This document shows positions 22,772-34,496 of a stretch of 34,496 bases of DNA, in pieces. Below the pieces are notes generated by a model. It was not told where the DNA came from. It saw only the letters and a list, made by a program, of their open reading frames with translations, and did no database searches. Source of the stretch: Pseudomonadota bacterium (lineage in GTDB: Bacteria > Desulfobacterota > Binatia > UBA1149). Numbering within the stretch: the stretch's first letter is position 1; each line of letters starts with the position of its first letter. Location of the stretch: contig JACNKC010000088.1 in assembly GCA_014382245.1 (NCBI GenBank), forward strand, positions 1 to 34,496. Reading direction: 5' to 3'. Made by a program: the position numbers and the translations under genes.

Positions 22772-23795
22772 CCTGAAAATTTGTAGCCTTGCCGATGTCA
22801 AGCTCGACGAAATAGCCGCTTTGCTGTACGAGCAGCGCCTGCGGCTGGGCCCGTTAACACCGGCCGCGCAGCAAGGCGACGCCTTGCGCACGGTGTGCCT
22901 TGAGCTGGTGACGGGACTGGCCGCCAACCGGCGCTGCGACACCGCGGTACTCGTGCAGGGCAAACGGGTGGTTGGCCTGCTCGCGGGCGAACGACAACTT
23001 CACGCGCCTGAGAAACTGGAGTCGCTATACCAGGAGCAGCGCTCGGTGCAGGTGCCCCTGCACGGCTTTGCCCTGGCCGAAGACATAGAGCCATTTGCCG
23101 GGGTGGCTGCCATGTACGGACATCTATCGGGCCGCTGGCTCGAAGATGGACTGATGACTCACACGCTGGACCTCGCAATCGGCGACCGGGCGGTCACGGA
23201 TGCCTGGGTGGCCATGGGCTTTGGTGGAAAGAGCGTCTGCGTGTTACGCGAGACCCGGCTGCCGGTGGAGAGCAACAGCAGTGTAGCCACGCGCCTGGTC
23301 GATCCGTTTGACGAGCAGGCCGCGGCTGTTGCCGACCAGATGCACAGGCAGCTGAGTAACTGGCAGGCCGGGTCGCCGATGTTCTGGCCATACAACGGCG
23401 AGCCCGACGCTGACTACTCGCGGCTGCGCAACGAACTATTGGCGGGAGACGACGCGGCCATGTTTCTCGCCGGAGACAGCGACAGCGCCAAGGGCGTGGT
23501 CGTACTCATTCCCCCCTTCTTCATCAGTCGCCTGTTCGACACCTCGAGCATGCTCTACTTGTGGGAAGGCGTTTCGGCAGCCGGGCAGAGAGGCGAGGGC
23601 ACGGGTTCGGCACTGCTGGCCCAGGCCATGGCCTGGGCACACGGCAGGGGCGTGCGTTGGTGCGCCCTGCACTTTGCGTCGGCCAACTCGATGGGTGCGC
23701 CGTTCTGGACAGGTCACGGTTTTGTGCCGGTGGCCGATACGCTCAAGCGCGTGCTCGACCCGGCCTGTGCGTGGGCGCGCGGGAGTGAATCGTGA
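22764..23795 (+). CDS. Double-GNAT-domain acetyltransferase-like protein
   Basis: The GTG at 22764, inside the end of aguB and about 5 nt after GGAGAAG, gives 343 residues. The C-terminal half has a clear GNAT acetyl-CoA-binding pattern: 'GQRGEGTGSALLAQAMAWA', then 'VRWCALHFASANSMGAPFWT' and 'GHGFVPVADTLKRVLD'. The N-terminal half has a degenerate version ending in 'AVTDAWVAMGFGGKSVCVLR', so it looks like a tandem GNAT with a probably inactive first copy. GNAT enzymes move an acetyl group from acetyl-CoA to amines. Because it sits third in the agmatine-to-putrescine operon, acetylation of putrescine or a related amine is an attractive guess, but nothing in the sequence proves the substrate. 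It overlaps both neighbours (8 and 4 nt). Confidence 0.8.
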   Translation: MGSLKICSLADVKLDEIAALLYEQRLRLGPLTPAAQQGDALRTVCLELVTGLAANRRCDTAVLVQGKRVVGLLAGERQLHAPEKLESLYQEQRSVQVPLHGFALAEDIEPFAGVAAMYGHLSGRWLEDGLMTHTLDLAIGDRAVTDAWVAMGFGGKSVCVLRETRLPVESNSSVATRLVDPFDEQAAAVADQMHRQLSNWQAGSPMFWPYNGEPDADYSRLRNELLAGDDAAMFLAGDSDSAKGVVVLIPPFFISRLFDTSSMLYLWEGVSAAGQRGEGTGSALLAQAMAWAHGRGVRWCALHFASANSMGAPFWTGHGFVPVADTLKRVLDPACAWARGSES

Positions 23796-24958
23796 AACGG
23801 AATTTCGTACTGGTGGCGGCACTGTTGTCGGGCCTCACCCTGTTGCTGTTCTGCGTGCTGGGTCCCGCGGTAGACCGCAGCATGAACAAGGTGGGCGGCG
23901 GAATGCCGCGCGAGCCATCGGACAGGGCCCGTGAACTCTACGACTCGTTGTTCGTGGCCGACCTTCACGCCGACTCGTTGCTGTGGGGGCGCGATCTTTC
24001 GCAGCGCGGGGAGCACGGTCACGTTGACCTGCCTCGCCTGCTGGCCGGCGGGGTCGCGTTGCAGGCCTTCACCGTTGTTACCCAGGTGCCGATGGGCATC
24101 AACATAGAGAGCAATCCCGCCGACAGCGACATAGTGCTGTGGCTGGCGTTGGCGCAGCGCTGGCCACCTGCCACCTGGACCAGCCTGGCCGAGCGCGCGC
24201 TGCTACAGGCGCGCAGGCTCGACGAGCTCGAGGCCGGCTCGGACGGCCAACTGCTGGTGCTCAGAACTTCGGCCGACCTCGACGACTATCTTTCCCGGCG
24301 AGGGCGGGGCGAGAAGGCGGTGGCCGCCTTCCTGGGCATAGAGGGGGCCCACGCCCTGGACGCTGAGCTGGCAAATGTTGATCGCTTGTTCGACGCGGGG
24401 TTCCGCATGATGGGCCCCACCCATTTTTTTGACAACGCGGTGGCCGGCTCGGCGCACGGGCTGGCCAAGGGCGGGCTCACGGGGCTGGGCAGGCAGGTCA
24501 TCGCGCGCATGCAGGAGCTGGGCATGATAGTGGACCTCGCGCATTCGTCGCCTGCCACCGTAGACGAGATCCTGGCCCTCGCAGTCCGTCCGGTCGTCGT
24601 GTCTCACGGGGGTGTGAAGGGCACCTGCGACAACACCCGTAACCTGTCGGACAAGCACCTGCGCGGCATAGCGGCCACGGGCGGGGTGATCGGCATAGGA
24701 TACTGGGAAACGGCCGTCTGCGGTGACGGTCCCGCCGACATTGCGCGCGCTATAGTGCACGCGATCAAGGTGGCCGGTGTGAGCCACGTCGGCCTGGGGT
24801 CTGACTTTGACGGAGCGATCACCGCCCCCTTTGACACAACGGGACTGGTTTCACTGGTCGACGAACTACTCGACGAGGGATTGTCCGACGACGATATTGC
24901 CGCCGTCATGGGCGGCAATACCTTGCGCGTGCTGCGCGCCGCGCTGCCGGCTGGCTGA
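23792..24958 (+). CDS. Membrane dipeptidase (peptidase family M19), membrane-anchored
   Basis: The GTG at 23792 overlaps the GNAT stop by 4 nt, giving 388 residues. An N-terminal hydrophobic segment ('FVLVAALLSGLTLLLFCVLG', 5-24) should anchor or export it; the Cys21 context is not a convincing lipobox. M19 (renal dipeptidase) zinc ligands are visible: His59 and Asp61 in 'ADLHADSL', Glu184 in 'GIEGAHAL', His251 in 'DLAHSS' and His272 in 'VVVSHGGVKG', with Asp338 in 'GLGSDFDGA'. 'GVIGIGYWETAVCGD' carries an aromatic-rich variant of the usual loop. The enzyme would hydrolyse dipeptides or related amide compounds in the periplasm. As the last gene of the agmatine/putrescine operon it may act on gamma-glutamyl or peptide-linked amines; that link is inferred only from position. 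Confidence 0.9.
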   Translation: MKRNFVLVAALLSGLTLLLFCVLGPAVDRSMNKVGGGMPREPSDRARELYDSLFVADLHADSLLWGRDLSQRGEHGHVDLPRLLAGGVALQAFTVVTQVPMGINIESNPADSDIVLWLALAQRWPPATWTSLAERALLQARRLDELEAGSDGQLLVLRTSADLDDYLSRRGRGEKAVAAFLGIEGAHALDAELANVDRLFDAGFRMMGPTHFFDNAVAGSAHGLAKGGLTGLGRQVIARMQELGMIVDLAHSSPATVDEILALAVRPVVVSHGGVKGTCDNTRNLSDKHLRGIAATGGVIGIGYWETAVCGDGPADIARAIVHAIKVAGVSHVGLGSDFDGAITAPFDTTGLVSLVDELLDEGLSDDDIAAVMGGNTLRVLRAALPAG

Positions 24959-24979: not shown

Positions 24980-26347
24980 TCAGGGCTTGGCGTAGGGAAT
25001 CTCGAGATCTTCGAGTTTTCGGTACAGCGAAGACAGACTGATCGACAGTTGCTGCGACGTGGACTTCTTGTCCCACTCAGTGCGCTCGAGGACCGAGACT
25101 ATGTGATTCCTTTCGTACAGCGCCATGGCCGACTTGAGCTCGTCGCCAGCGGCCTGCATCGGGCCGACGGCCTCGACCAGTCGCGAGGGTAGTTCGTCCA
25201 CGCCGATCCAATCGCCAGAGCCCACGATCATTGCGTGTTCAATGGCGTTGTCGAGCTCGCGCACGTTGCCCTTCCAGGGTGAACTGACGAGTATTTTCAT
25301 GGCCGCGTTTTCTACGCCCTTGAAGTGATGGTTCATCTCGTGGTTGTGGCGGCGCACGAGAAAATCGACCAGCGGCGGCACGTCTTCTCGGCGCTCCCTC
25401 AGGGGGGGGATCTCTATCCCGAAGACGTTGAGCCGGTAGTAAAGGTCTTCGCGGAACTCGCTCGCGCCGACCGCCTCGTCGAGGTCCTGGTTGGTGGCCG
25501 CGATGATGCGGATGTCAATCTTCGTGGGGGTGGTCGATCCCACTTGCAGGACTTCCCTGTCTTCCAGTGCGCGCAACAGTTTTACTTGCAGGGCCAGCGG
25601 AAGGTCGCCGATTTCGTCGAGAAACACAGTGCCACCGCGTGCCCTCTGGAACAGCCCCTCCTGGCCGGTGACGGCGCCCGTGAAGGCGCCCCTCACGTGT
25701 CCGAACAGCTGGCTTTCGAGCAGGTTTTCCGGGATAGCTCCGCAGTTGATGGGCAGGAATATCTTGTCGCGGCGATCGCTGTAACGGTGTACTGCGCGGG
25801 CGACGACTTCTTTGCCGACGCCGCTTTCGCCCGTGATGAGCACCGTGGACAGGGTGGGTGCTACCTGCTGAATCTGCTCTGCGATTTTGCGCATCGCGGG
25901 ACTTTCACCCACAAGGTTCTCGATGTCGTAGCGAGACTCCACTTCTCCTCGCAGGTGCTGGATCTGCCAGGCGAGGTCCCGGCGTTCAAGAAGCCGACTG
26001 ATCTTGAGCAGCACATCGTCGTAGACAAGCGGCTTGATCATGTAATCGTGGGCGCCTTCCCGCAAGGCATCCACTGCGGTCTCCACGCTCGCGTAGGCAG
26101 TGACCAGTATTACCAAGGTCTGCGGGCAGAGCATGCGCACCTCGCGCAGTAATTCTACGCCGTCCATCCCCGGCATGCGGAGGTCGGTCAGTACGAGGTC
26201 GAACTCGGCCTCGTTGATTATTTCCCTGGCTTCTTCGCCGCTTTCGGCGACGTGGGTATCGTAACCCTCTTCTCGCAACACGTCGGCCAGGCTTTCGCGG
26301 CTGGCGATTTCGTCGTCGACTACCAGTATACTCGCGTTTATAGGCAT
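24980..26347 (-). CDS. NtrC-family sigma-54-dependent response regulator
   Basis: The ATG at 26347 has GGAGGG about 8-9 nt upstream, giving 455 residues. The receiver domain has the acidic pocket 'VVDDE' (9-13), the phosphoacceptor Asp55 in 'LVLTDLRMPGMDG' and Lys105 in 'YMIKPL'. The AAA+ domain has Walker A 'GESGVGKE' (173-180), the sigma-54 contact loop 'GAFTGA' (220-225) and Walker B 'TVFLDEIGD' (240-248). The C-terminus ends in a Fis-type helix-turn-helix ('TSQQLSISLSSLYRKLEDLE'). It is therefore a complete activator of sigma-54 promoters, driven by phosphorylation. The divergent globin-coupled histidine kinase is the obvious partner. Two sigma-54 promoter motifs near 28.6 kb are candidate targets. 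Its 3' end is convergent with the dipeptidase gene. Confidence 0.95.
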   Translation of the reverse strand: MPINASILVVDDEIASRESLADVLREEGYDTHVAESGEEAREIINEAEFDLVLTDLRMPGMDGVELLREVRMLCPQTLVILVTAYASVETAVDALREGAHDYMIKPLVYDDVLLKISRLLERRDLAWQIQHLRGEVESRYDIENLVGESPAMRKIAEQIQQVAPTLSTVLITGESGVGKEVVARAVHRYSDRRDKIFLPINCGAIPENLLESQLFGHVRGAFTGAVTGQEGLFQRARGGTVFLDEIGDLPLALQVKLLRALEDREVLQVGSTTPTKIDIRIIAATNQDLDEAVGASEFREDLYYRLNVFGIEIPPLRERREDVPPLVDFLVRRHNHEMNHHFKGVENAAMKILVSSPWKGNVRELDNAIEHAMIVGSGDWIGVDELPSRLVEAVGPMQAAGDELKSAMALYERNHIVSVLERTEWDKKSTSQQLSISLSSLYRKLEDLEIPYAKP

Positions 26348-26439
26348 GATTTGCTTACCCTCCTTCTTGCGCCGGGTTGATGCCACCGGCAGTAGCTTTT
26401 GACACTGCAGGCGCTGGCTGCAAACTCTCGAAGCTTCTT

Positions 26440-27753
26440 ATGCTTTCGCTTGTCGAACGTACAGGGCAGGACGCTGAATCCCGCACCGCGCTGCTCTGTT
26501 TCCTGGAAATCAACGCACCGGAGCGTGAGCGGCTGGCCGGTCTGCGGCGGTTCTTCGAAGATATCGCCGATAACATGATGGAGGAGTTCTACGAGTATCT
26601 TCTCAGGCACGAGCAAACGGCTGCTTTTCTCCAGGACCCGGCCCTTGTCGAGCGCTTGAAAAAAGCGCAGCGCCGACACTTCATCGAGCTTGCCGACTGT
26701 TGCGACTCCGAGGAGTACTTCGAGGCTCGGCTGAAGGTGGGCATGGCGCACGCGGGGGTCGGGCTGAGGCCCGAGTACTACCTCGGCGCTTACTCCTCGC
26801 AGCTGGCCTACGTGTCGGCGTCGGCTTCCAGGCGTTTCGCGGACGACGACCCAACCGAGCTCGAAGCGAACCTGCGGGTGGTCACGAAGGTGATCACACT
26901 CGACATATGCCTTGCGACCGAAGCGTACATTTATGGCGGCTACGTTGAGAAGTCGCTTTCCGAGGCTCACCAGGCTGCCGCCATTCGAGCGCGAGAGGCC
27001 CTGGCCGAAAAAGAACAAGAAGAACGGCGGAAGGAAGAGCTGCTCAGGATGGTCGTGCACGACATCAGGAGTCCGGTAACTGCCATCATGGCGGCTTCGC
27101 GCGCGGCATTGCGACGTTACAAGGACCCAGCGGAGCCGCCCGGGCGACAGTTTGCGCTCATAGAAGAGAGCGGCAAGAACGTTCTTAATATCATCGACGA
27201 GATTCTCAACGTGGCCGGGCAGGCGACCGGCGATATGCCTATCAACGCCTTGCCTTTTGACCTGGCTGTTCTGCTCCAGGACTGCGTGGCCGAACTCAGG
27301 CCTTATGCCGAACACACCGATCATTTTGTCGAACTGTCCTGCCCCGGCAGCTTGCCGGTGAGCTGGCTTGATCCCTTGCTCGTGCGGAGGGTGGTTTCCA
27401 ATCTTCTCGTAAACGCTTTTCGGCACACCCCGGCCGGTTGCAGGGTGGAGATTTTTGCTGGGCCGCTGGCTGCAGCTACCGCGGGTGGTCAAGTTGCAGG
27501 CAGCGAGACCGCGATGACTGACGGCGTGCTTATACGGGTGGCAGACAACGGGTCGGGTGTTTCGGCGCGGGTGGAGAAGCGTATTTTTGAAGGCGAGGCC
27601 ACCGGTGTTCTCAAGACCGAGGGGGCTTCTCTTACCACCGGGCTGGGCTTGCCCTTCTGCCGGCTGGCCTGCGAGCGCCTTGGAGGTAGCATAAAGCTCA
27701 CTCGACAGGGCGGGTTGGGGGCCTGTTTTGTAATCGAATTTCCGGCAGGCTGA
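26440..27753 (+). CDS. Globin-coupled sensor histidine kinase
   Basis: The N-terminal ~170 residues match protoglobin-type globin-coupled sensors: 'LAGLRRFFEDIADNMMEEFY', 'LKKAQRRHFIELA', and 'LKVGMAHAGVGLRPEYYLGAY', in which His104 occupies the proximal heme-ligand position (as in HemAT or DosC 'VHARIG'). A coiled linker rich in Glu/Arg (180-200) leads to the kinase: H-box 'MVVHDIRSP' with His207, N-box 'RRVVSNLLVNAFRHTPAG', G1 'VADNGSG' and G2 'TTGLGLPF'. No membrane segments are seen, so it is a cytoplasmic sensor of O2, NO, CO or redox through heme. The start is uncertain: ATG 26440 gives 437 residues, while ATG 26380 or TTG 26377 would add about 20 non-globin residues. A TTGACA at 26399-26404 could be its -35 box. 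It is divergent from the NtrC-type regulator. Confidence 0.9.
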   Translation: MLSLVERTGQDAESRTALLCFLEINAPERERLAGLRRFFEDIADNMMEEFYEYLLRHEQTAAFLQDPALVERLKKAQRRHFIELADCCDSEEYFEARLKVGMAHAGVGLRPEYYLGAYSSQLAYVSASASRRFADDDPTELEANLRVVTKVITLDICLATEAYIYGGYVEKSLSEAHQAAAIRAREALAEKEQEERRKEELLRMVVHDIRSPVTAIMAASRAALRRYKDPAEPPGRQFALIEESGKNVLNIIDEILNVAGQATGDMPINALPFDLAVLLQDCVAELRPYAEHTDHFVELSCPGSLPVSWLDPLLVRRVVSNLLVNAFRHTPAGCRVEIFAGPLAAATAGGQVAGSETAMTDGVLIRVADNGSGVSARVEKRIFEGEATGVLKTEGASLTTGLGLPFCRLACERLGGSIKLTRQGGLGACFVIEFPAG

Positions 27754-28007
27754 AGTGAACACGGCGGTAGTTGTCGCGCCAGGCCCCGTGCCGTTGCCGC
27801 CTTCGACCCGGGTACCTGACGCGACTACCCTCTGCGACGAGGGCAGTGCCGAAGTTGCAACTTCCCTGCCAAGCCACAGTTGGCTGGCAGATCCGGGGGC
27901 AGCCTTATTATTGGGGCCATAAGCGGCTTCCCGGGGGTGGATAGGTAGATCTCGAATTCGCAAAACCGAGAAAACCGGGGTGCTGGATTCCCGGAAGCGG
28001 GAATACT
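27754..28007. other. Convergent intergenic region with several hairpins
   Basis: This 254 bp gap between the kinase and the ferritin-like gene has no plausible ORF but several dyads: CCCTC/GAGGG (27828-27843), the perfect palindrome GAAGTTGCAACTTC (27851-27864), and ATTCCCG-GAAG-CGGGAAT (27987-28004). The last sits four bases from the ferritin-like stop and suits a terminator hairpin for the minus strand. A-rich runs (CAAAACCGAGAAAACC, 27961-27976) lie just beyond it; read on the minus strand they give T-rich stretches, which strengthens that reading. Confidence 0.45.
27987..28004 (-). terminator. Hairpin terminator candidate for the ferritin-like gene
   Basis: A perfect 7 bp stem (ATTCCCG/CGGGAAT) with a 4-base loop lies just downstream of the minus-strand stop. 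On that strand it is followed, after a short gap, by short T-runs (complement of AAAACC, 27961-27976). Plausible but not a canonical continuous U-tract. Confidence 0.45.
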
Positions 28008-28556
28008 TCAGTTAGCCCGGCTGGTTGCCGCCCGGGCGGAACGGGAGGTTCGGGCGGGGTCTTTTTCGCCGTCGGCGGAGCTCTCAGCTGCCTTCTCGAT
28101 AGAGCTTTCGAGTTTGTCGAGCCGGTGGCCGTGCCCCATGGTTTCGTCGGGCCTGTCGAGCAGTCGGCTGAACCCCCGCATACGTTCCTGGACCATGACG
28201 AAGAGTTCGGGGTAAACAGTCAGCAGTTCGGTCTGCTCGATGGCAGCGGTTATCTGTTGGGCTTCGAGTTCGGTTACGCCCTCGCTGACCCTGGCTCGCG
28301 CTTCGTCCAGCTTGGCTCGTTCGCGGTCAAGGGCCGATTGCATCGTGACCAGGAAAGGGCCGTCGTCTACGTCAACTTCCATTATGGCGGAGAGTGCCTT
28401 GAGTACGCGGGCGTGAAAACGCTCGTCGCTCGCCAGGCCCTTCCAGAACTCTGCGAGTTCGTTATTCCCCGCGTGAAGCTCGGCCAGCTCGTCGTACATT
28501 CTGCCGGTTTCGTCTTCGATGCGGGCGCAGTTATGGAGTATCTGCCGCAGGTACAT
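28008..28556 (-). CDS. Ferritin-like (rubrerythrin-type) protein
   Basis: The ATG at 28556 ('MYLRQILHNC') gives 182 residues. The pattern resembles the first helices of ferritin-like/rubrerythrin proteins: 'CARIEDETGRMYDELAELH' with an early glutamate, then 'FWKGLASDERFHARVLKALS' with an E-x-x-H pair (Glu45, His48). A second long helical region carries further Glu residues ('TELEAQQITAAIEQTELL'). The C-terminal ~45 residues are charged and probably disordered. Iron or redox function is inferred from this pattern; no iron-binding set is complete enough to be sure. The frame is open to 28757, but the upstream part has no family features. A sigma-54-like promoter (28572-28587) would put transcription only about 5 nt before this ATG, so the message may be nearly leaderless or the start needs revision. 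Confidence 0.65.
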   Translation of the reverse strand: MYLRQILHNCARIEDETGRMYDELAELHAGNNELAEFWKGLASDERFHARVLKALSAIMEVDVDDGPFLVTMQSALDRERAKLDEARARVSEGVTELEAQQITAAIEQTELLTVYPELFVMVQERMRGFSRLLDRPDETMGHGHRLDKLESSIEKAAESSADGEKDPARTSRSARAATSRAN

Positions 28557-28571
28557 TACACCCGTGTCGCA

Positions 28572-28587
28572 AGCAGGTGTCGTGCCA
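28572..28587 (-). promoter_or_regulatory. Sigma-54 (-24/-12) promoter candidate for the ferritin-like gene
   Basis: On the minus strand this reads TGGCACGACACCTGCT, matching the sigma-54 consensus TGGCACG-N4-TTGCW at all but one position, with exact GG-to-GC spacing. It differs from the plus-strand copy at 28752 in only two bases. Predicted transcription start is near 28561. Confidence 0.65.
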
Positions 28588-28751
28588 AGACTGCTGGGCA
28601 CGCTGATTTCCCGGTGGCGCTGCCCAAGCTGTTTATTCGCTTGCTGGAACTTCGCAGCCCTGGGAAAAAACCAGGCATTGTTTCTCCGTGACGTGGACAA
28701 GAACCAGCGCGCTTGGTGGCTTTTCCGGGCAGCTGGGAGTTTTAGGCGGGC

Positions 28752-28767
28752 TGGCACGGCACCTGCA
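28752..28767 (+). promoter_or_regulatory. Sigma-54 (-24/-12) promoter candidate for the universal stress gene
   Basis: TGGCACGGCACCTGCA matches TGGCACG-N4-TTGCW except for C in place of the first T of the -12 box. Spacing is exact. Predicted transcription start is near 28778, leaving a leader of about 76 nt before the GTG at 28854. Confidence 0.7.
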
Positions 28768-28807
28768 CATTCGCAGGCGAGTCGGTGCTGTCGGTAACAG
28801 AGGGGAG

Positions 28808-28844
28808 CTGGCCCAGGCCGGGCCAGTGCCTGGCCGCGAGGAGG
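28808..28844 (+). promoter_or_regulatory. Overlapping, mutually exclusive hairpins and RBS in the universal stress leader
   Basis: CTGGCCC (28808-28814) pairs with GGGCCAG (28820-28826). Alternatively GGCCAG (28821-28826) pairs with CTGGCC (28830-28835). Both stems use the bases 28821-28826, so only one can form. The second ends three bases before the ribosome binding site GAGGAGG (28838-28844). This is the arrangement of a simple leader switch; regulation is inferred. Confidence 0.45.
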
Positions 28845-28853
28845 TAAACGGGC

Positions 28854-29324
28854 GTGAAGACTTTCAAAAAAATACTTGCCGTTACGGACTTGTCTTCAGA
28901 ATCCCTGTCTGCAGTTTCTTATGCCGGCCACCTGGCCCGCGCCCAGGGAGCGAGTCTTGTCGTGCTTCACGTGGCTCACAGTACTACTGTGCTCTTTACC
29001 GAGTTCGTGCCGGGAATAGACATGACCGCGATCGACGAGGAAATTGAAACCGCGGCCCGCGAAAGACTCGGGAGTTGGGCGAAGCGCCATCTGCGCAAAG
29101 TCGAGCAGTTGGAGTTGATCGTGCGCAGGGGGCTCGTGCCCGAAACGGTGTGCGAGGTGGCGGCTGAGACCGGCGCCAGCATCATCGCCATGGCCACCCA
29201 CGGGCGCACCGGCGTTGGCCGCATGGTGCTCGGCAGCGTTACCGAGAAGGTACTCGCCCGGGCTCCCTGCCCGGTGCTGGTTGTCAGGCCTCCCAACCCG
29301 GTGGTCGAGGTAAAATCCGGCTGA
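28854..29324 (+). CDS. Universal stress protein (UspA family)
   Basis: The GTG at 28854 lies 9 nt after a strong GAGGAGG site, giving 156 residues, the usual single-domain USP length. It starts with 'FKKILAVTDLSSES', has 'GASLVVLHVAH' in the second strand, and the ATP-binding loop 'ATHGRTGVGRMVLGSVTEKV', in which the first glycine of the G-2x-G-9x-G(S/T) motif is Ala. The C-terminal 'CPVLVVRPP' is standard. ATP-binding USPs help survival under starvation, low oxygen and redox stress. The sigma-54 motif upstream and the nearby globin kinase/NtrC regulator suggest control by that pair. It is followed by a region of repeated GGNTGAC elements (29319-29357) and then by the hydrolase gene on the same strand, 80 bp downstream. 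Confidence 0.93.
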   Translation: MKTFKKILAVTDLSSESLSAVSYAGHLARAQGASLVVLHVAHSTTVLFTEFVPGIDMTAIDEEIETAARERLGSWAKRHLRKVEQLELIVRRGLVPETVCEVAAETGASIIAMATHGRTGVGRMVLGSVTEKVLARAPCPVLVVRPPNPVVEVKSG

Positions 29325-29404
29325 CGCATTCCGGGTTGACCCGTTTCCTGGGTTGACGCAGTGCCGGTGGCCCAATAGCCTTGCCGGTCCGCGGCCTGAA
29401 CACG

Positions 29405-30421: not shown

Positions 30422-33400
30422 GTGTTCTATTGTACAAGCCCCGGGGCCCGATTTTTATGGGGTGTCCGGGGCTTGATGTTCGTGCAGTATCGACTCTACA
30501 CAGCCCTGCTGGCTTCGAGCCTGGCCCTGCTTTTTCCGGTGGCGGCGGTGTCGGCCACCATAACCATCATCAACCTGGACTCGGCCGGCGTGGGCCTGAA
30601 CGACACGACGCCAGCCACTCCCGTGGGCGGCAATACCGGCACCACCAAGGGTGCCCAGGCGCTGCAGACTTTCGAACACGCTGCCTCGATATGGGCGGGC
30701 CTGCTCGACAGCAGCGTCGAGATAAAGGTCGGCGCCAGCTTCGCCGCTCTCAGCTGCACGACTAATTCCGGTACGCTTGGGTCGGCGGGTACGCAGACGG
30801 TCCATCGCGATTTTCTCAACGCTCCGCTCGCTTCTACCTGGTACCCGCAGGCCCTGGCCAACGCTCTTGCGGGGAGTGATCTCGACCCTGCGAACAATGA
30901 TATAGGTATGCAGTTCAATGGCGCGATGGGCACCACCGGCTGCCTGGAGTCGCTATCCTGGTACATGGGTCTGGACGAGGTCGAGCCTGCTAACACCATC
31001 AACCTCGCGAGCGTGGCGTTGCACGAGATCGGCCATGGACTCGGATTTGCCAGCTTTGTAACGCTTTCGTCGGGGGCACTGTTCAATGGCCTGCCGGACG
31101 CATACAGCAGCCTGCTCGAAGATCACTCCACCGGCACGCTCTACCCGGCCATGACCAATGCGCAGAGGGTGACGGCAAGCAGCGATACCGGCGACCTGCA
31201 CTGGACCGGGGCCGCGTCGGTGGCTGCATCGGGGTCGCTCAGTTCGGGCGTGCACGCCAGTGGCCACATCGAGATTTATGCCCCCAGCCCGCAGGAGCCC
31301 GGCTCGTCGGTGTCTCACTGGAGTACGTCCGCTTTTCCCAACGAGTTGATGGAACCCAGCCACACCGGTCCCGATCTTGACCCTGGGCTGGCGCTGGAAC
31401 TCATGGTCGATCTTGGCTGGCAGCTGCTCAGCGCTTGTTCAGGCGGGGTGCCCGACGGTACGGCCTGCGATGACGGGTTGTTCTGCAACGGCGCCGATAC
31501 CTGCAGCGGGGGAGCGTGCAGCAGCCACGCCGGCGACCCCTGCAGCGGGGGTAGCGAGTGCAGCGCCACCTGCAACGAGGTTGCCAATAACTGCTTCGAC
31601 ATCGCTAACACGCCATGCACTGCCGATGCCATCGAGTGCACCGCCGACGTATGCGACGGCGCAGGAGCGTGCAGTCACACCGACGCCAGTGCCCAGCCTG
31701 GCGGTTGTGGCGACGACGGCACCTACCGTTGCGACGACTCCAATGATCCGGGTGGTCCCAGCAGTTTTGTCTACGACGACATCGCCTCCAGCGGTACCTC
31801 GCTTGCGCTGGCAGATGACGCGTCGTCCGGCGCGGCGCTGGGTTTTACGTTCAACTATTACGGCACCGATTACACGTCGCTGAACGTATGCTCGAACGGC
31901 CTGGTTTCCTTTACCGACAGCAGTTGCCCGCTCACCGCCGCTTCTATACCCACCGCCGCTGCCCCTAACGCCGCTATCATGGCCTTTTGGGAAGACCTGA
32001 ACCCTGAGCTGGGCGGAACAATCCACTATGAAACCCTGGGCGCTGCCCCGCAGCGGCGCTTCGTTGTGCAGTTTACCAACATACAGCACTTCGGCGGTGG
32101 CTCGCCGGCCAGCTTTCAAGTGGTACTTTTCGAAAGCGCCAATAACATCGAGGTGAGGTACCTGTCAGCCATCCCGGATGGTGGCACGCACACTATCGGC
32201 ATTGAGAACGCCACGGGAACCGACGGCATACAGGTGGTAAACGGAAACCCCGGAACCCTGGCCAACTTCACGATCCGTTATGACACCGGCGTCGCCTGTG
32301 ACGACGGCAACGTGTGTACCTTCCATGACATATGCGTTTCGTCGGTGTGCAGCGGCTCAAACCTGGTGACCTGCACGGCCAGTGACCAGTGCCACGACGT
32401 AGGAACATGTGATCCGGGTACGGGCGTCTGCAGTGACCCGGTTGCTGCCAATGGAACTGCCTGCGACGACGGCGATGCGTGCACGCAGACCGACAGCTGC
32501 CAGGCGGGCGTTTGCACGGGCTCAAACCCGGTAACCTGCACGGCCAGCGACCAGTGCCACACGGTTGGAACATGCAACCCGGGTACCGGCGTCTGCAGTG
32601 ACCCGGCGGTGGGCAACGGTACCGCCTGCGACGACAGCAACGCCTGCACGCAGAGCGACAGCTGCCAGGCGGGTAGCTGTGCGGGCGCCAACCCGGTTGT
32701 CTGTAACGCCAGCGACCAGTGCCACGACGTTGGAACATGTGACCCGGGTACCGGTGTCTGCAGTGCCCCGAACGCCGCCAACGGCACGGTCTGCGACGAC
32801 GGCGCGTTCTGCAACGCGGGCGAAACCTGTACGGCTGGTGTTTGCGGTGGCGGTGGCTTGACCGACTGCTCGGGCGCGGGCGACCAGTGCAACACCGGCA
32901 GCTGCAACGAGACCAGCAATGCCTGCGAAGCCGTGGTCGCCAACGAGGGCAATGCCTGCGACGACGGGGATCCTGCCACCACTGGTGACCAGTGCTCGGC
33001 AGGCGTATGCAGCGGCACGATTCCACCGCCGCCAGCCGTGGTGAGCATTTCACTTCCGGCGGGCGACCCGGTGCCAGGACAGATAATCACGGGTGAGCTA
33101 CTGATAGAGACCAGCCTGCCGCTGGGTAACTACGGAATAGATATAAACTGTGACGCCGCGTTGTTGACGATAGTGCCCCCGGTATCGGGAGGTAATACCA
33201 CCGAGTTTACAGCTGCGCCGGTGCAGAGCCTGGGCGCTTGCAGTGCGACCCTGAGCGGATTTCAATTCTCTAACCTTTTGTCACCAACCGGGGTGGTGAG
33301 CGTGGCCCATGTACAGTTCGAGGTGCTTGCCGGGGCCGTTGCCGGTAGCAGCAGCACGGTTGACCTGGTTCCCTCGGTCATTGGCGATACTGACGGCAAC

Positions 33401-34496
33401 AGTCTCGCGTTTGTTGACCTGGATAATACGATTACGATTGCCGCTGTATGCGGTAACGGCCTGCTCGAGCTGGGCGAACAGTGCGACGACAGCAACACTG
33501 ACGCCGGGGATTGTTGCTCGGCGACCTGTACCTTCGAGCCGGGCTCCTGTGACGACAGCGATGCCTGTACGCAGAGCGATAGCTGCCAGGCCGGGGTGTG
33601 CACGGGCTCGAACCCTGTTGTCTGCACGGCCAGCGACCAGTGCCACACGGTTGGCAGCTGCGATCCGGGTACCGGTGTCTGCAGTGATCCGGCTGCTGGC
33701 AACGGAGTGGTCTGCGATGACGGAGACGAGTGCACGCAGAGCGATACGTGCCAGGCGGGGGTGTGCACGGGCTCAAACCCTGTTGTCTGCACGGCCAGCG
33801 ACCAGTGCCATGACGTTGGCAGCTGCGATCCGGGTACCGGCGTCTGCAGTGACCCGGCGACGGGCGATGGAACTGCTTGCGATGACGGAGACGAGTGCAC
33901 GCAGAGCGATACGTGCCAGGCGGGGGTGTGCACGGGCTCAAACCCTGTTGTCTGCACGGCCAGCGACCAGTGCCATGACGTTGGCAGCTGTGACGCGGGG
34001 ACCGGTGTGTGCAGTGATCCGGCGACGGGCGATGGAACTGCCTGCGACGACGGCGACCCGGCGACCACCAGTGATGTATGTACGGGCGGCGTGTGCAGCG
34101 GGGTAGATCTCTGCGCGGCGGTGACCTGCACGGCCAGTGACCAGTGCCATGACGTTGGCACTTGTGCTCCGTCAACGGGCGCCTGCAGCGACCCAGCGTC
34201 GGCCAACGGTACAGCCTGCGACGACGGCGATCCCGTTACGACGGGCGACGAGTGCGTAGGCGGGGTTTGCGGCGGGACAGATCTCTGCGCGACGGTTACC
34301 TGCACGGCCAGCGACCAGTGTCATGTAGCCGGTAGCTGCGACCAGGCAACTGGCCTTTGCAGCGATCCGATCGCCGGCAACGGCACCGGCTGCGACGACG
34401 GCGACCCGGCCACTACCAGTGATGTATGTACGGGCGGGGTGTGCAGCGGGGTAGATCTCTGCGCGACGGTTACCTGCACGGCCAGTGACCAGTGTC
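30422..34496 (+). CDS. Large secreted Cys-rich zincin with nidogen-like, cohesin-like and CTDC-type repeats, 3' partial
   Basis: The frame runs without a stop from GTG 30422 to the window edge (1358 codons visible). A signal peptide spans about residues 20-44 ('YTALLASSLALLFPVAAVSA'). Residues ~45-335 form a zincin paralogous to the protein at 11680: 'HEIGHGLGF' (201-209), third-ligand candidate His299 in 'SSVSHWS', then 'NELMEP'. A Cys-rich stretch follows, then a beta domain at ~440-622 ('LGFTFNYYGTDYTSLNVCSN', 'IMAFWEDLNPELGGTIHYE') that resembles nidogen-like/SNG domains. From residue 626 come five repeats of ~55 residues of the 'CDDGDACTQTDSCQAGVCTG' type, a cohesin-like domain (873-1009), a DUF4215 motif 'CGNGLLELGEQCDDSN', and six more repeats up to the edge. 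It is probably an extracellular multidomain protease or adhesin; how it ends and is anchored is not visible. Confidence 0.88.
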   Translation, partial: MFYCTSPGARFLWGVRGLMFVQYRLYTALLASSLALLFPVAAVSATITIINLDSAGVGLNDTTPATPVGGNTGTTKGAQALQTFEHAASIWAGLLDSSVEIKVGASFAALSCTTNSGTLGSAGTQTVHRDFLNAPLASTWYPQALANALAGSDLDPANNDIGMQFNGAMGTTGCLESLSWYMGLDEVEPANTINLASVALHEIGHGLGFASFVTLSSGALFNGLPDAYSSLLEDHSTGTLYPAMTNAQRVTASSDTGDLHWTGAASVAASGSLSSGVHASGHIEIYAPSPQEPGSSVSHWSTSAFPNELMEPSHTGPDLDPGLALELMVDLGWQLLSACSGGVPDGTACDDGLFCNGADTCSGGACSSHAGDPCSGGSECSATCNEVANNCFDIANTPCTADAIECTADVCDGAGACSHTDASAQPGGCGDDGTYRCDDSNDPGGPSSFVYDDIASSGTSLALADDASSGAALGFTFNYYGTDYTSLNVCSNGLVSFTDSSCPLTAASIPTAAAPNAAIMAFWEDLNPELGGTIHYETLGAAPQRRFVVQFTNIQHFGGGSPASFQVVLFESANNIEVRYLSAIPDGGTHTIGIENATGTDGIQVVNGNPGTLANFTIRYDTGVACDDGNVCTFHDICVSSVCSGSNLVTCTASDQCHDVGTCDPGTGVCSDPVAANGTACDDGDACTQTDSCQAGVCTGSNPVTCTASDQCHTVGTCNPGTGVCSDPAVGNGTACDDSNACTQSDSCQAGSCAGANPVVCNASDQCHDVGTCDPGTGVCSAPNAANGTVCDDGAFCNAGETCTAGVCGGGGLTDCSGAGDQCNTGSCNETSNACEAVVANEGNACDDGDPATTGDQCSAGVCSGTIPPPPAVVSISLPAGDPVPGQIITGELLIETSLPLGNYGIDINCDAALLTIVPPVSGGNTTEFTAAPVQSLGACSATLSGFQFSNLLSPTGVVSVAHVQFEVLAGAVAGSSSTVDLVPSVIGDTDGNSLAFVDLDNTITIAAVCGNGLLELGEQCDDSNTDAGDCCSATCTFEPGSCDDSDACTQSDSCQAGVCTGSNPVVCTASDQCHTVGSCDPGTGVCSDPAAGNGVVCDDGDECTQSDTCQAGVCTGSNPVVCTASDQCHDVGSCDPGTGVCSDPATGDGTACDDGDECTQSDTCQAGVCTGSNPVVCTASDQCHDVGSCDAGTGVCSDPATGDGTACDDGDPATTSDVCTGGVCSGVDLCAAVTCTASDQCHDVGTCAPSTGACSDPASANGTACDDGDPVTTGDECVGGVCGGTDLCATVTCTASDQCHVAGSCDQATGLCSDPIAGNGTGCDDGDPATTSDVCTGGVCSGVDLCATVTCTASDQC
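30435..30475 (+). other. Inverted repeat at the start of the large zincin gene
   Basis: CAAGCCCCGG (30435-30444) and CCGGGGCTTG (30466-30475) are perfect 10-base inverted repeats with a 21-base loop. They lie between the two start candidates (GTG 30422, ATG 30476), the second arm ending directly before the ATG. The hairpin could control translation or select the start; it could also be an accident of coding sequence. Confidence 0.5.
32297..33020 (+). repeat. First block of CTDC-like Cys-rich protein repeats
   Basis: Five coding units of roughly 55 codons, each starting 'CDD(G/S)' and most containing 'TASDQCH(D/T)VGTC(D/N)PGTGVCS' variants. The fourth ('CNAGETCTAGVCGGGG') and the short fifth are diverged. 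They lie inside the large zincin and precede its cohesin-like domain. Confidence 0.85.
33038..33448 (+). other. Cohesin-like domain within the large zincin
   Basis: Residues 873-1009 (137 residues) resemble a cohesin: start 'VVSISLPAGDPVPGQIITGE', then 'SLPLGNYGIDINCDAALLTI', an Ala/Ser/Gly-rich loop, 'GVVSVAHVQFEVLAGAVAGS', and an ending 'DTDGNSLAFVDLDNTITIAA'. The order of short beta-strands, the aliphatic 'lxxxxIxxxxDxxLL' motif and the length suit the family. Recognition is by eye, so moderate confidence. Confidence 0.6.
33548..34496 (+). repeat. Second block of CTDC-like Cys-rich repeats, running off the window
   Basis: Six visible units of 55-58 codons, the last cut by the window edge. 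The second and third share a perfect 113 bp identity (33713-33825 and 33878-33990) at a 165 bp period, showing recent duplication. Later units carry a longer 'GVDLCATVTCTASDQC' variant. Confidence 0.9.

Follow-up and report, generated by a model that had tools for sequence, protein, structure and literature searches.

The window, by which we mean the whole stretch of 34,496 nucleotides analyzed here, belongs to genome G000 (2.94 Mb, 129 contigs) and carries the following genes and predicted promoters:

24980–26347, minus strand: NtrC-family response regulator (Pfam match and GAFTGA), proposed activator of both promoters
26437–27753, plus strand: protoglobin (globin-coupled) histidine kinase, with a putative start codon in a frame open from 26377
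28008–28556, minus strand: rubrerythrin-like (ferritin-like) gene (PF02915), start codon at 28556
28572–28587, minus strand: predicted sigma-54 promoter TGGCACGACACCTGCT, predicted start 28561, leader of about 5 nt
28752–28767, plus strand: predicted sigma-54 promoter TGGCACGGCACCTGCA, predicted start 28778, leader of about 76 nt with a Shine–Dalgarno sequence
28854–29324, plus strand: universal stress protein (USP) gene (Usp, 2e-32)

The regulator combines a receiver domain, an AAA+ domain with GAFTGA at residue 220 and a Fis-type helix-turn-helix (Response_reg 5.6e-29, Sigma54_activat 3.9e-70, HTH_8 1.3e-7), which is the domain set of the NtrC family, and the kinase has a protoglobin domain (1.6e-26) followed by HisKA and HATPase_c, as in globin-coupled sensor kinases. 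In alignments of the globin domain with HemAT, globin 2w31 and AfGcHK, the His of AHAGVGL coincides with the His of all three, and the Tyr of EEFYEY with that of AfGcHK; we take these residues to be the proximal His and distal Tyr of the heme pocket. The 3′ end of the kinase gene lies 0.8 kb from the left promoter motif and the divergent regulator gene starts 2.2 kb from it; both genes, within 2.2 kb of the promoter pair, had gone unmentioned in the initial annotation of this DNA. The spacer between kinase and regulator holds no sigma-54 motif scoring above 7.5 and no enhancer site (described below) with three or fewer mismatches. The USP has homologues of 53–57% identity at the same loci in G007, G009, and G010. 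The PF02915 match of the rubrerythrin-like protein is marginal (22.9 bits vs. a cut-off of 22.8), and among its homologues that of G143 lies above the cut-off, those of G010 and G070 below it, and three others have no match; the window protein has one ExxH (in DERFH) that is missing in some homologues, and its single-sequence structural model (pLDDT 49.3) is too poor for use. Next to the regulator gene is one for a membrane dipeptidase (M19; window 23792–24958), with homologues of 53–55% identity in the 18-kb regions around the kinase in G083 and G084 (L146, L148). At 32354–32804 and 33569–34494 the window also contains tandem repeats of 165–174 bp in 2.7–3.1 copies, which, as a guess, could encode a repeat protein on the plus strand.

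An Outward-Facing Pair of Putative Sigma-54 Promoters

The initial annotation had described two 16-mers, alike at 14 positions and facing outward, and both are found exactly where it had placed them, one on each strand, between the rubrerythrin-like gene and the universal stress gene. TGGCACGGCACCTGCA and TGGCACGACACCTGCT differ at 2 of 16 positions, fit TGGCACG-N5-TGCW, carry the GG and GC elements at fixed spacing, and are each one base off TGGCACG-N4-TTGCW, the single deviation that had been attributed to each being the same C for T before TGC. The start positions 28561 and 28778 were placed on the assumption that the C of the GC element lies at −12. Only these two sites match the pattern TGGCACGNNNNNTGCW without mismatch in the window, compared with a mean of 0.097 exact matches in dinucleotide shuffles of the window (n = 1,000; at least two matches in 4 shuffles), and none of the 1,000 shuffles contained a divergent exact pair at most 400 bp apart, in agreement with the earlier judgment that a mirrored pair is unlikely by chance. 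The strength of the signal lies in exactness and arrangement, because the pattern with two mismatches allowed occurs at chance level (33 in the window; shuffle mean 31.05). On a literature-based sigma-54 matrix, the pair reaches 16.8 and 17.4, whereas scores of at least 16 occur on average 0.08 times per shuffled window (60 shuffles). Across the whole 2.94-Mb genome, the exact pattern occurs 18 times and a reversed control pattern 8 times. As the sigma-54 reading implies, rpoN is present in G000 (one match, PF04552, 8.2e-63, contig C100).

The further statement that the window holds no other copy of the motif is correct for exact matches to TGGCACGNNNNNTGCW but not for strong motifs in general, since a third one lies downstream of the rubrerythrin-like gene together with enhancer-like sites 56, 85, and 116 bp upstream of it:

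27856–27871, minus strand: third sigma-54 motif TGGCAGGGAAGTTGCA, matrix score 16.2, directed toward the 3′ end of the kinase gene
27928–27943: enhancer-like site TTCCCGGGGGTGGATA, 8/10 palindrome match
27957–27972: enhancer-like site TTCGCAAAACCGAGAA, 8/10, 31 bp from TTCCCGGAAGCGGGAA
27988–28003: enhancer-like site TTCCCGGAAGCGGGAA, 10/10 palindrome match

A similar third motif occupies the same place in G007 (L033, 5074, minus) and G006 (L029, 6808, minus), where the neighborhood of the kinase yielded no rubrerythrin-like gene; an ATG follows the corresponding motif by 12 nt in G007, and none does so in the window. A small RNA from the third promoter was considered: the window stretch folds better than shuffled versions of it (z = −2.76), but those of G007 and G006 do not (z = 0.33 and 0.43), and Rfam returned no match for the stretch downstream of the promoter, so we keep this idea only as a lead. 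Separately, a well conserved stretch behind a sigma-54 motif occurs in two genomes of one genus (L030 10503–10700, L032 7474–7700); it contains two inverted repeats, one being GCCCGGCAACAATTGCCGGGC and the other having GGGTCCGCG arms, and has no Rfam match.

A Probable Shared Enhancer Palindrome

Between the two outward promoters lies a pair of candidate activator sites, at distances of 63 bp (left promoter) and 54 bp (right promoter):

28651–28666: enhancer-like site TTCGCAGCCCTGGGAA, 9/10 palindrome match
28682–28697: weaker second site TTCTCCGTGACGTGGA, 7/10, 31 bp from TTCGCAGCCCTGGGAA

The palindrome, TTCCC-N6-GGGAA, was first noticed by reading the intergenic regions of relatives. When 7,168 palindrome types (1,024 half-sites, gaps 3–9) were ranked in the 220 nt upstream of 7 of the 8 homologous promoters (G143, which has no enhancer site there, being left out), it came first, with at most two mismatches at 7/7 promoters and a score of 12 against at most 10 in 6 shuffled sets. 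A second site matching at 7/10 or better stands at exactly 31 bp from 10 of 18 sites, which were chosen by hand and some of which had previously been seen as pairs, compared with at most 2 of the 18 at every other offset from 17 to 60 bp. Within the window by itself, the palindrome is no commoner than chance would give: 2 sites against an expectation of 1.07, a number reached in 30/100 shuffles.

Exact sites were also counted for a correctly oriented sigma-54 motif (score at least 13) within 300 nt. Ten of 46 had one in the 10 genomes of the order that encode the regulator, or 7/43 without the three loci where the palindrome was first seen; in G003, G011, and G012, the order genomes that lack the regulator, 1 of 9 did, this one being the orthologue of the C98 site of G000. 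The contrast between 10/46 and 1/9 is not significant, and a split of the same sites by kinase instead gives 9/43 against 2/12. A wrong-way motif occurs at 1/55 sites (L204, G008), the same motif being rightly oriented for the site at L205. Rank and spacing are stronger signals than the regulator contrast. One set of enhancer sites probably serves both promoters.

Distribution of the Unit among Relatives

The kinase is found in 9 of the 13 genomes of the order, G000 included (the other eight at 43–49% identity), and the regulator lies beside it in 9/9. Regulator orthologues of at least 63% identity occur in 10/13 order genomes and reach 70–73% in the eight relatives with the kinase; G008 has the regulator at 63% and no kinase match, and in G003, G011, and G012 neither protein was matched. 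The rubrerythrin-like gene adjoins the kinase in five of the nine kinase-bearing genomes (G000, G004, G005, G009, G010), and in G001 it is on contig C188 and the kinase on C103. No match to the rubrerythrin-like protein was obtained in G011 (86% complete) or G012, which belong to the same genus as the window; this absence is therefore not evidence against the promoter reading, the genes themselves being missing. In a survey of the class, the kinase was detected at E ≤ 1e-50 in 20/148 genomes, G000 included, of which 11 lie outside the order; a regulator of 58–62% identity is nearby in 10 of these 11 and none in G147. A draw from the phylum, in which only four candidates per genome were scored, yielded the kinase in 3/395 genomes, namely G000 and two of the same class. 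The unit thus seems lineage-restricted and patchily kept.

The comparison with related genomes that the initial annotation had proposed supports its reading, as the outward pair recurs at 5 of the 8 rubrerythrin-like loci compared, the window included, each time with enhancer-like palindromes between the promoters. The other four lie at the homologous place in G010 (L035, 9005−/9171+), G009 (L036, 9050−/9209+), G005 (L034, 6143−/6575+), and G070 (L150, 3630−/3752+), the last of which has a second pair elsewhere (8567−/8689+). Both G070 pairs (L150 3630–3767 and 8567–8704) are in the same 122-bp register with enhancer-like sites in between. At the remaining loci, G004 and G001 have a promoter of the rubrerythrin-like gene only, with no outward partner, and G143 has a weak motif (10.9) abutting another, with no enhancer. 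The joint NtrC-type control that had been suggested is supported by rpoN, by the NtrC-family regulator 2.2 kb away and by the pair with palindromes at 5/8 homologous loci, and we regard the window pair as putative sigma-54 promoters under such control.

The Predicted Regulon

Much of the predicted target set is concerned with redox and respiration. Enhancer-linked promoters stand before a Rieske protein and cytochrome b in G001 (the latter by frame reading) and in G002 (both by frame reading), a hemerythrin in G010, a molybdopterin oxidoreductase in G008 and, in G070, hemerythrin-CBS, rubrerythrin-like, USP, and NMD3-domain proteins. In G010, a dihydroorotate-dehydrogenase-like gene followed by USPs lies on the right arm of the pair; in G009, this arm has genes for Rieske, cytochrome b, a multiheme cytochrome, an outer-membrane protein of the alginate-export type, and a USP sharing 56% identity with that of the window. 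Other candidate targets are a LolA-like protein (G009), Pfam-less proteins (two promoters in G005), and, behind one-mismatch enhancers near sigma-54 motifs on contigs C54 and C1 of G000, proteins without Pfam match.

One candidate on contig C98 of G000 combines an exact enhancer with a sigma-54 motif. It is nevertheless unlikely to be a target, because the orthologous site stands in G011, which lacks the regulator (none of its regulators is closer than 41–42% to that of the window). At this place (G000:C98:32358–32555 and G011:C7), a conserved TTCCCGG-type palindrome lies 182 bp from a sigma-54 motif before a very short frame.

A Putative Promoter Kept Close to the Start Codon

The left motif TGGCACGACACCTGCT ends 15 nt before the ATG at 28556, and in five relatives found by protein search alone with the window protein as query (G010, G001, G004, G009, G005), a sigma-54 motif ends 12–14 nt before the start codon in every case. 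With the window, G070, and G143 (weak motif) added, the gap is 9–15 nt at 8/8 loci, corresponding to predicted leaders of −1 to 5 nt, which is not a blind count because these are the rows of the search profile and G070 was found through its promoters. None of the eight has a Shine–Dalgarno sequence of at least 4 nt. Since the motif lies this close to the start and no Shine–Dalgarno is seen, the rubrerythrin-like mRNA should be nearly without leader.

A class-wide profile search matched 117/145 genomes, and the best 30 loci examined comprise the 8 profile rows, which rank first by construction, being the profile's own rows, and 22 more distant homologues. Of the latter, 0/22 have a motif within 15 nt of the start (three have one at 22–26 nt) and 17/22 have a Shine–Dalgarno sequence. 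Several of the 22 come from kinase-bearing genomes, so even possession of the kinase does not guarantee this geometry: G145 and G146 have a motif of score 14.0 at 22–24 nt from the start, and G083, G084, G086, and G147 have no sigma-54 motif at the start of the rubrerythrin-like homologue. Correct placement of the start codon is indicated by similarity to the window protein that begins at residue 1 in 5/5 relatives and by a start codon on profile position 1 in 26/30 homologues, including those in which a Shine–Dalgarno sequence marks the start; the first residue of the alignment (A1) is Met by choice of starts. The G009 homologue starts with GTG, which disfavors strictly leaderless translation there under the AUG rule, as given in the portion available of PMC3616915.

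Short gaps of 9–15 nt also occur on 4/4 arms of the two outward pairs of G070, with 12, 12, and 15 nt at the hemerythrin-CBS, USP, and NMD3-like genes, the last of which has GAGG 8 nt before its ATG. Among the 17 other exact sigma-54 sites in G000, 10 have a start 33–90 nt away with a Shine–Dalgarno sequence of at least 4 nt. At L009 1100–1516 (contig C45 of G000), an exact site is followed at 11 nt by the ATG of a 129-residue frame with no Shine–Dalgarno or Pfam match; this may be a second short-leader gene, or the real start may come later.

Proposed Mechanism and Alternatives

Motifs, genes and their co-occurrence, the enhancer with its spacing, and the conserved distance from promoter to start codon can be read directly from these genomes. 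We infer from them a heme-borne gas signal, phosphotransfer, binding of the regulator to these sites, and near-leaderless translation, and we consider it likely that the locus forms a divergent, sigma-54-dependent control unit for a two-component system, with the globin-coupled kinase as sensor. A ligand on the kinase heme, most likely O2, would change autophosphorylation of the kinase, which would in turn phosphorylate the NtrC-type regulator of the divergent neighboring gene. Between the promoters, the regulator would then assemble at the two TTCCC-N6-GGGAA enhancers with their 31-bp spacing and use ATP hydrolysis to open sigma-54 polymerase at both promoters, giving the universal stress protein rightward from a leadered mRNA and, leftward, the rubrerythrin-like protein from a message whose leader measures about 5 nt.

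That the motifs are chance or decayed sequences without function is highly improbable: it could draw on the loose pattern being at chance level in the window, but such a pair appeared in 0/1,000 shuffles and recurs at the same place in other genera. Real promoters driven by a different enhancer-binding protein, with the globin kinase and its regulator as chance neighbors, would be compatible with the at least four further NtrC-type regulators of G000 (41–42% identical to that of the window) and with the separate contigs of rubrerythrin-like gene and kinase in G001. We think this unlikely, however, given that the regulator accompanies the kinase in all nine order genomes that have it, that the rubrerythrin-like gene adjoins in five, and that the palindrome recurs at those promoters, in part of them with the 31-bp spacing.

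The most serious alternative touches the left transcript alone, yet we still hold it to be improbable: the mRNA may not be near-leaderless, either because the start codon is misplaced and a downstream start is used or because a longer mRNA comes from another promoter, the sigma-54 motif being minor. The open frame does extend upstream through the left motif to 28757, and the GTG of G009 is unfavorable for leaderless translation. Opposing this are the agreement of relatives and profile on the first residue, the next Met of the window protein (M20) being common to only 2/8 homologues, the recurrence of the short gap at the hemerythrin-CBS, USP, and NMD3-like genes of G070, and the position of the only sigma-70-like site found in 26300–29400, which is on the opposite strand at 27884.

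The divergent two-component control unit remains our preferred reading, and a broader version of it appears about evenly balanced between true and false, namely that a gas-sensing globin kinase and NtrC-type regulator run a sigma-54 regulon in which some genes (the rubrerythrin-like gene and, in G070, also the hemerythrin-CBS, USP, and NMD3-like genes) are purposely leaderless or nearly so, the promoter being locked to the start codon. If so, enhancer-driven transcription would be joined to leaderless translation, perhaps keeping synthesis going when ordinary initiation is reduced. The 9–15-nt gap suggests that a class of nearly leaderless mRNAs is made from sigma-54 promoters, for which no description was found in the portions available of the open-access literature searched, and it is a warning that start-codon annotation behind such promoters can mislead.

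Comparison with Known Systems

The nearest known system is NmpRSTU of Myxococcus xanthus, which according to the available parts of two papers comprises the NtrC-like NmpR, the protoglobin kinase NmpU, and the hybrid kinase NmpS (PMC11841059, PMC6211767); the globin kinase works by way of the hybrid kinase, and hypoxia raises the expression of an NmpR-dependent gene (PMC11841059, in part). As far as these excerpts go, both systems combine a protoglobin kinase and its NtrC-like partner with sigma-54 promoters that carry two enhancer palindromes and with a regulon of USP, hemerythrin, and respiratory genes, the promoters, palindromes, and regulon of the window lineage being predicted. They differ in the DNA site, which in the same excerpts is GCGCA-N5-TGCGC with a preferred gap of 14–15 bp for NmpR and in the window lineage TTCCC-N6-GGGAA, whose two copies begin 31 bp from each other and leave a gap of 15 bp. 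No NmpR-type site with two or fewer mismatches occurs in the two promoter regions of the window (one each in G009 and G005), and such sites across the window number 52 against 69 expected. NmpRSTU has, in addition, the hybrid kinase NmpS and the phospho-sink NmpT by the same partial account, neither of which is among the six neighboring genes scanned in the window, and the near-leaderless geometry predicted for the window lineage has no mention for NmpRSTU in the available text of PMC11841059 and PMC6211767. Among the matches listed (80 loci), homologues of NmpR by name gave full-length regulators at most 46% identical (short segments at most 52%), and tblastn with the kinase detected no globin part beside those loci. 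The window unit cannot be filed as NmpRSTU, because the NmpR DNA site was not found at its promoters; by analogy, it is predicted to work like NmpRSTU, as a relative in kind. Open-access searches for a protoglobin histidine kinase with sigma54 found only the Nmp papers, and those for globin-coupled, rubrerythrin, and response regulator together found only a diguanylate cyclase paper among the text available.

AfGcHK of Anaeromyxobacter sp. Fw109-5 (PDB 5ohe) resembles the window kinase in having a proximal-His/distal-Tyr globin domain followed by a histidine kinase. It is active with oxygen bound (PMC8697598, in the part available), and if the window kinase behaves likewise, the sign of the O2 response could be opposite to that of M. 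xanthus, because no hybrid kinase is among the six neighboring genes scanned. The available portion of PMC11841059 describes the target genes of the Anaeromyxobacter system as unknown, whereas the window unit has a sigma-54 activator and probable targets encoded alongside. Leaderless mRNAs have been mapped in Sinorhizobium meliloti and Bradyrhizobium (excerpts of PMC3616915 and PMC4842269), which the window resembles in its predicted start site at or within a few nucleotides of the start codon; in those excerpts, the Bradyrhizobium leaderless motif is of the extended −10 type, unlike the −24/−12 type that the window lineage keeps across genera for one gene family. The unit allows a globin-coupled kinase to be tested outside Myxococcus together with its regulator, a DNA site of defined spacing, and probable targets.
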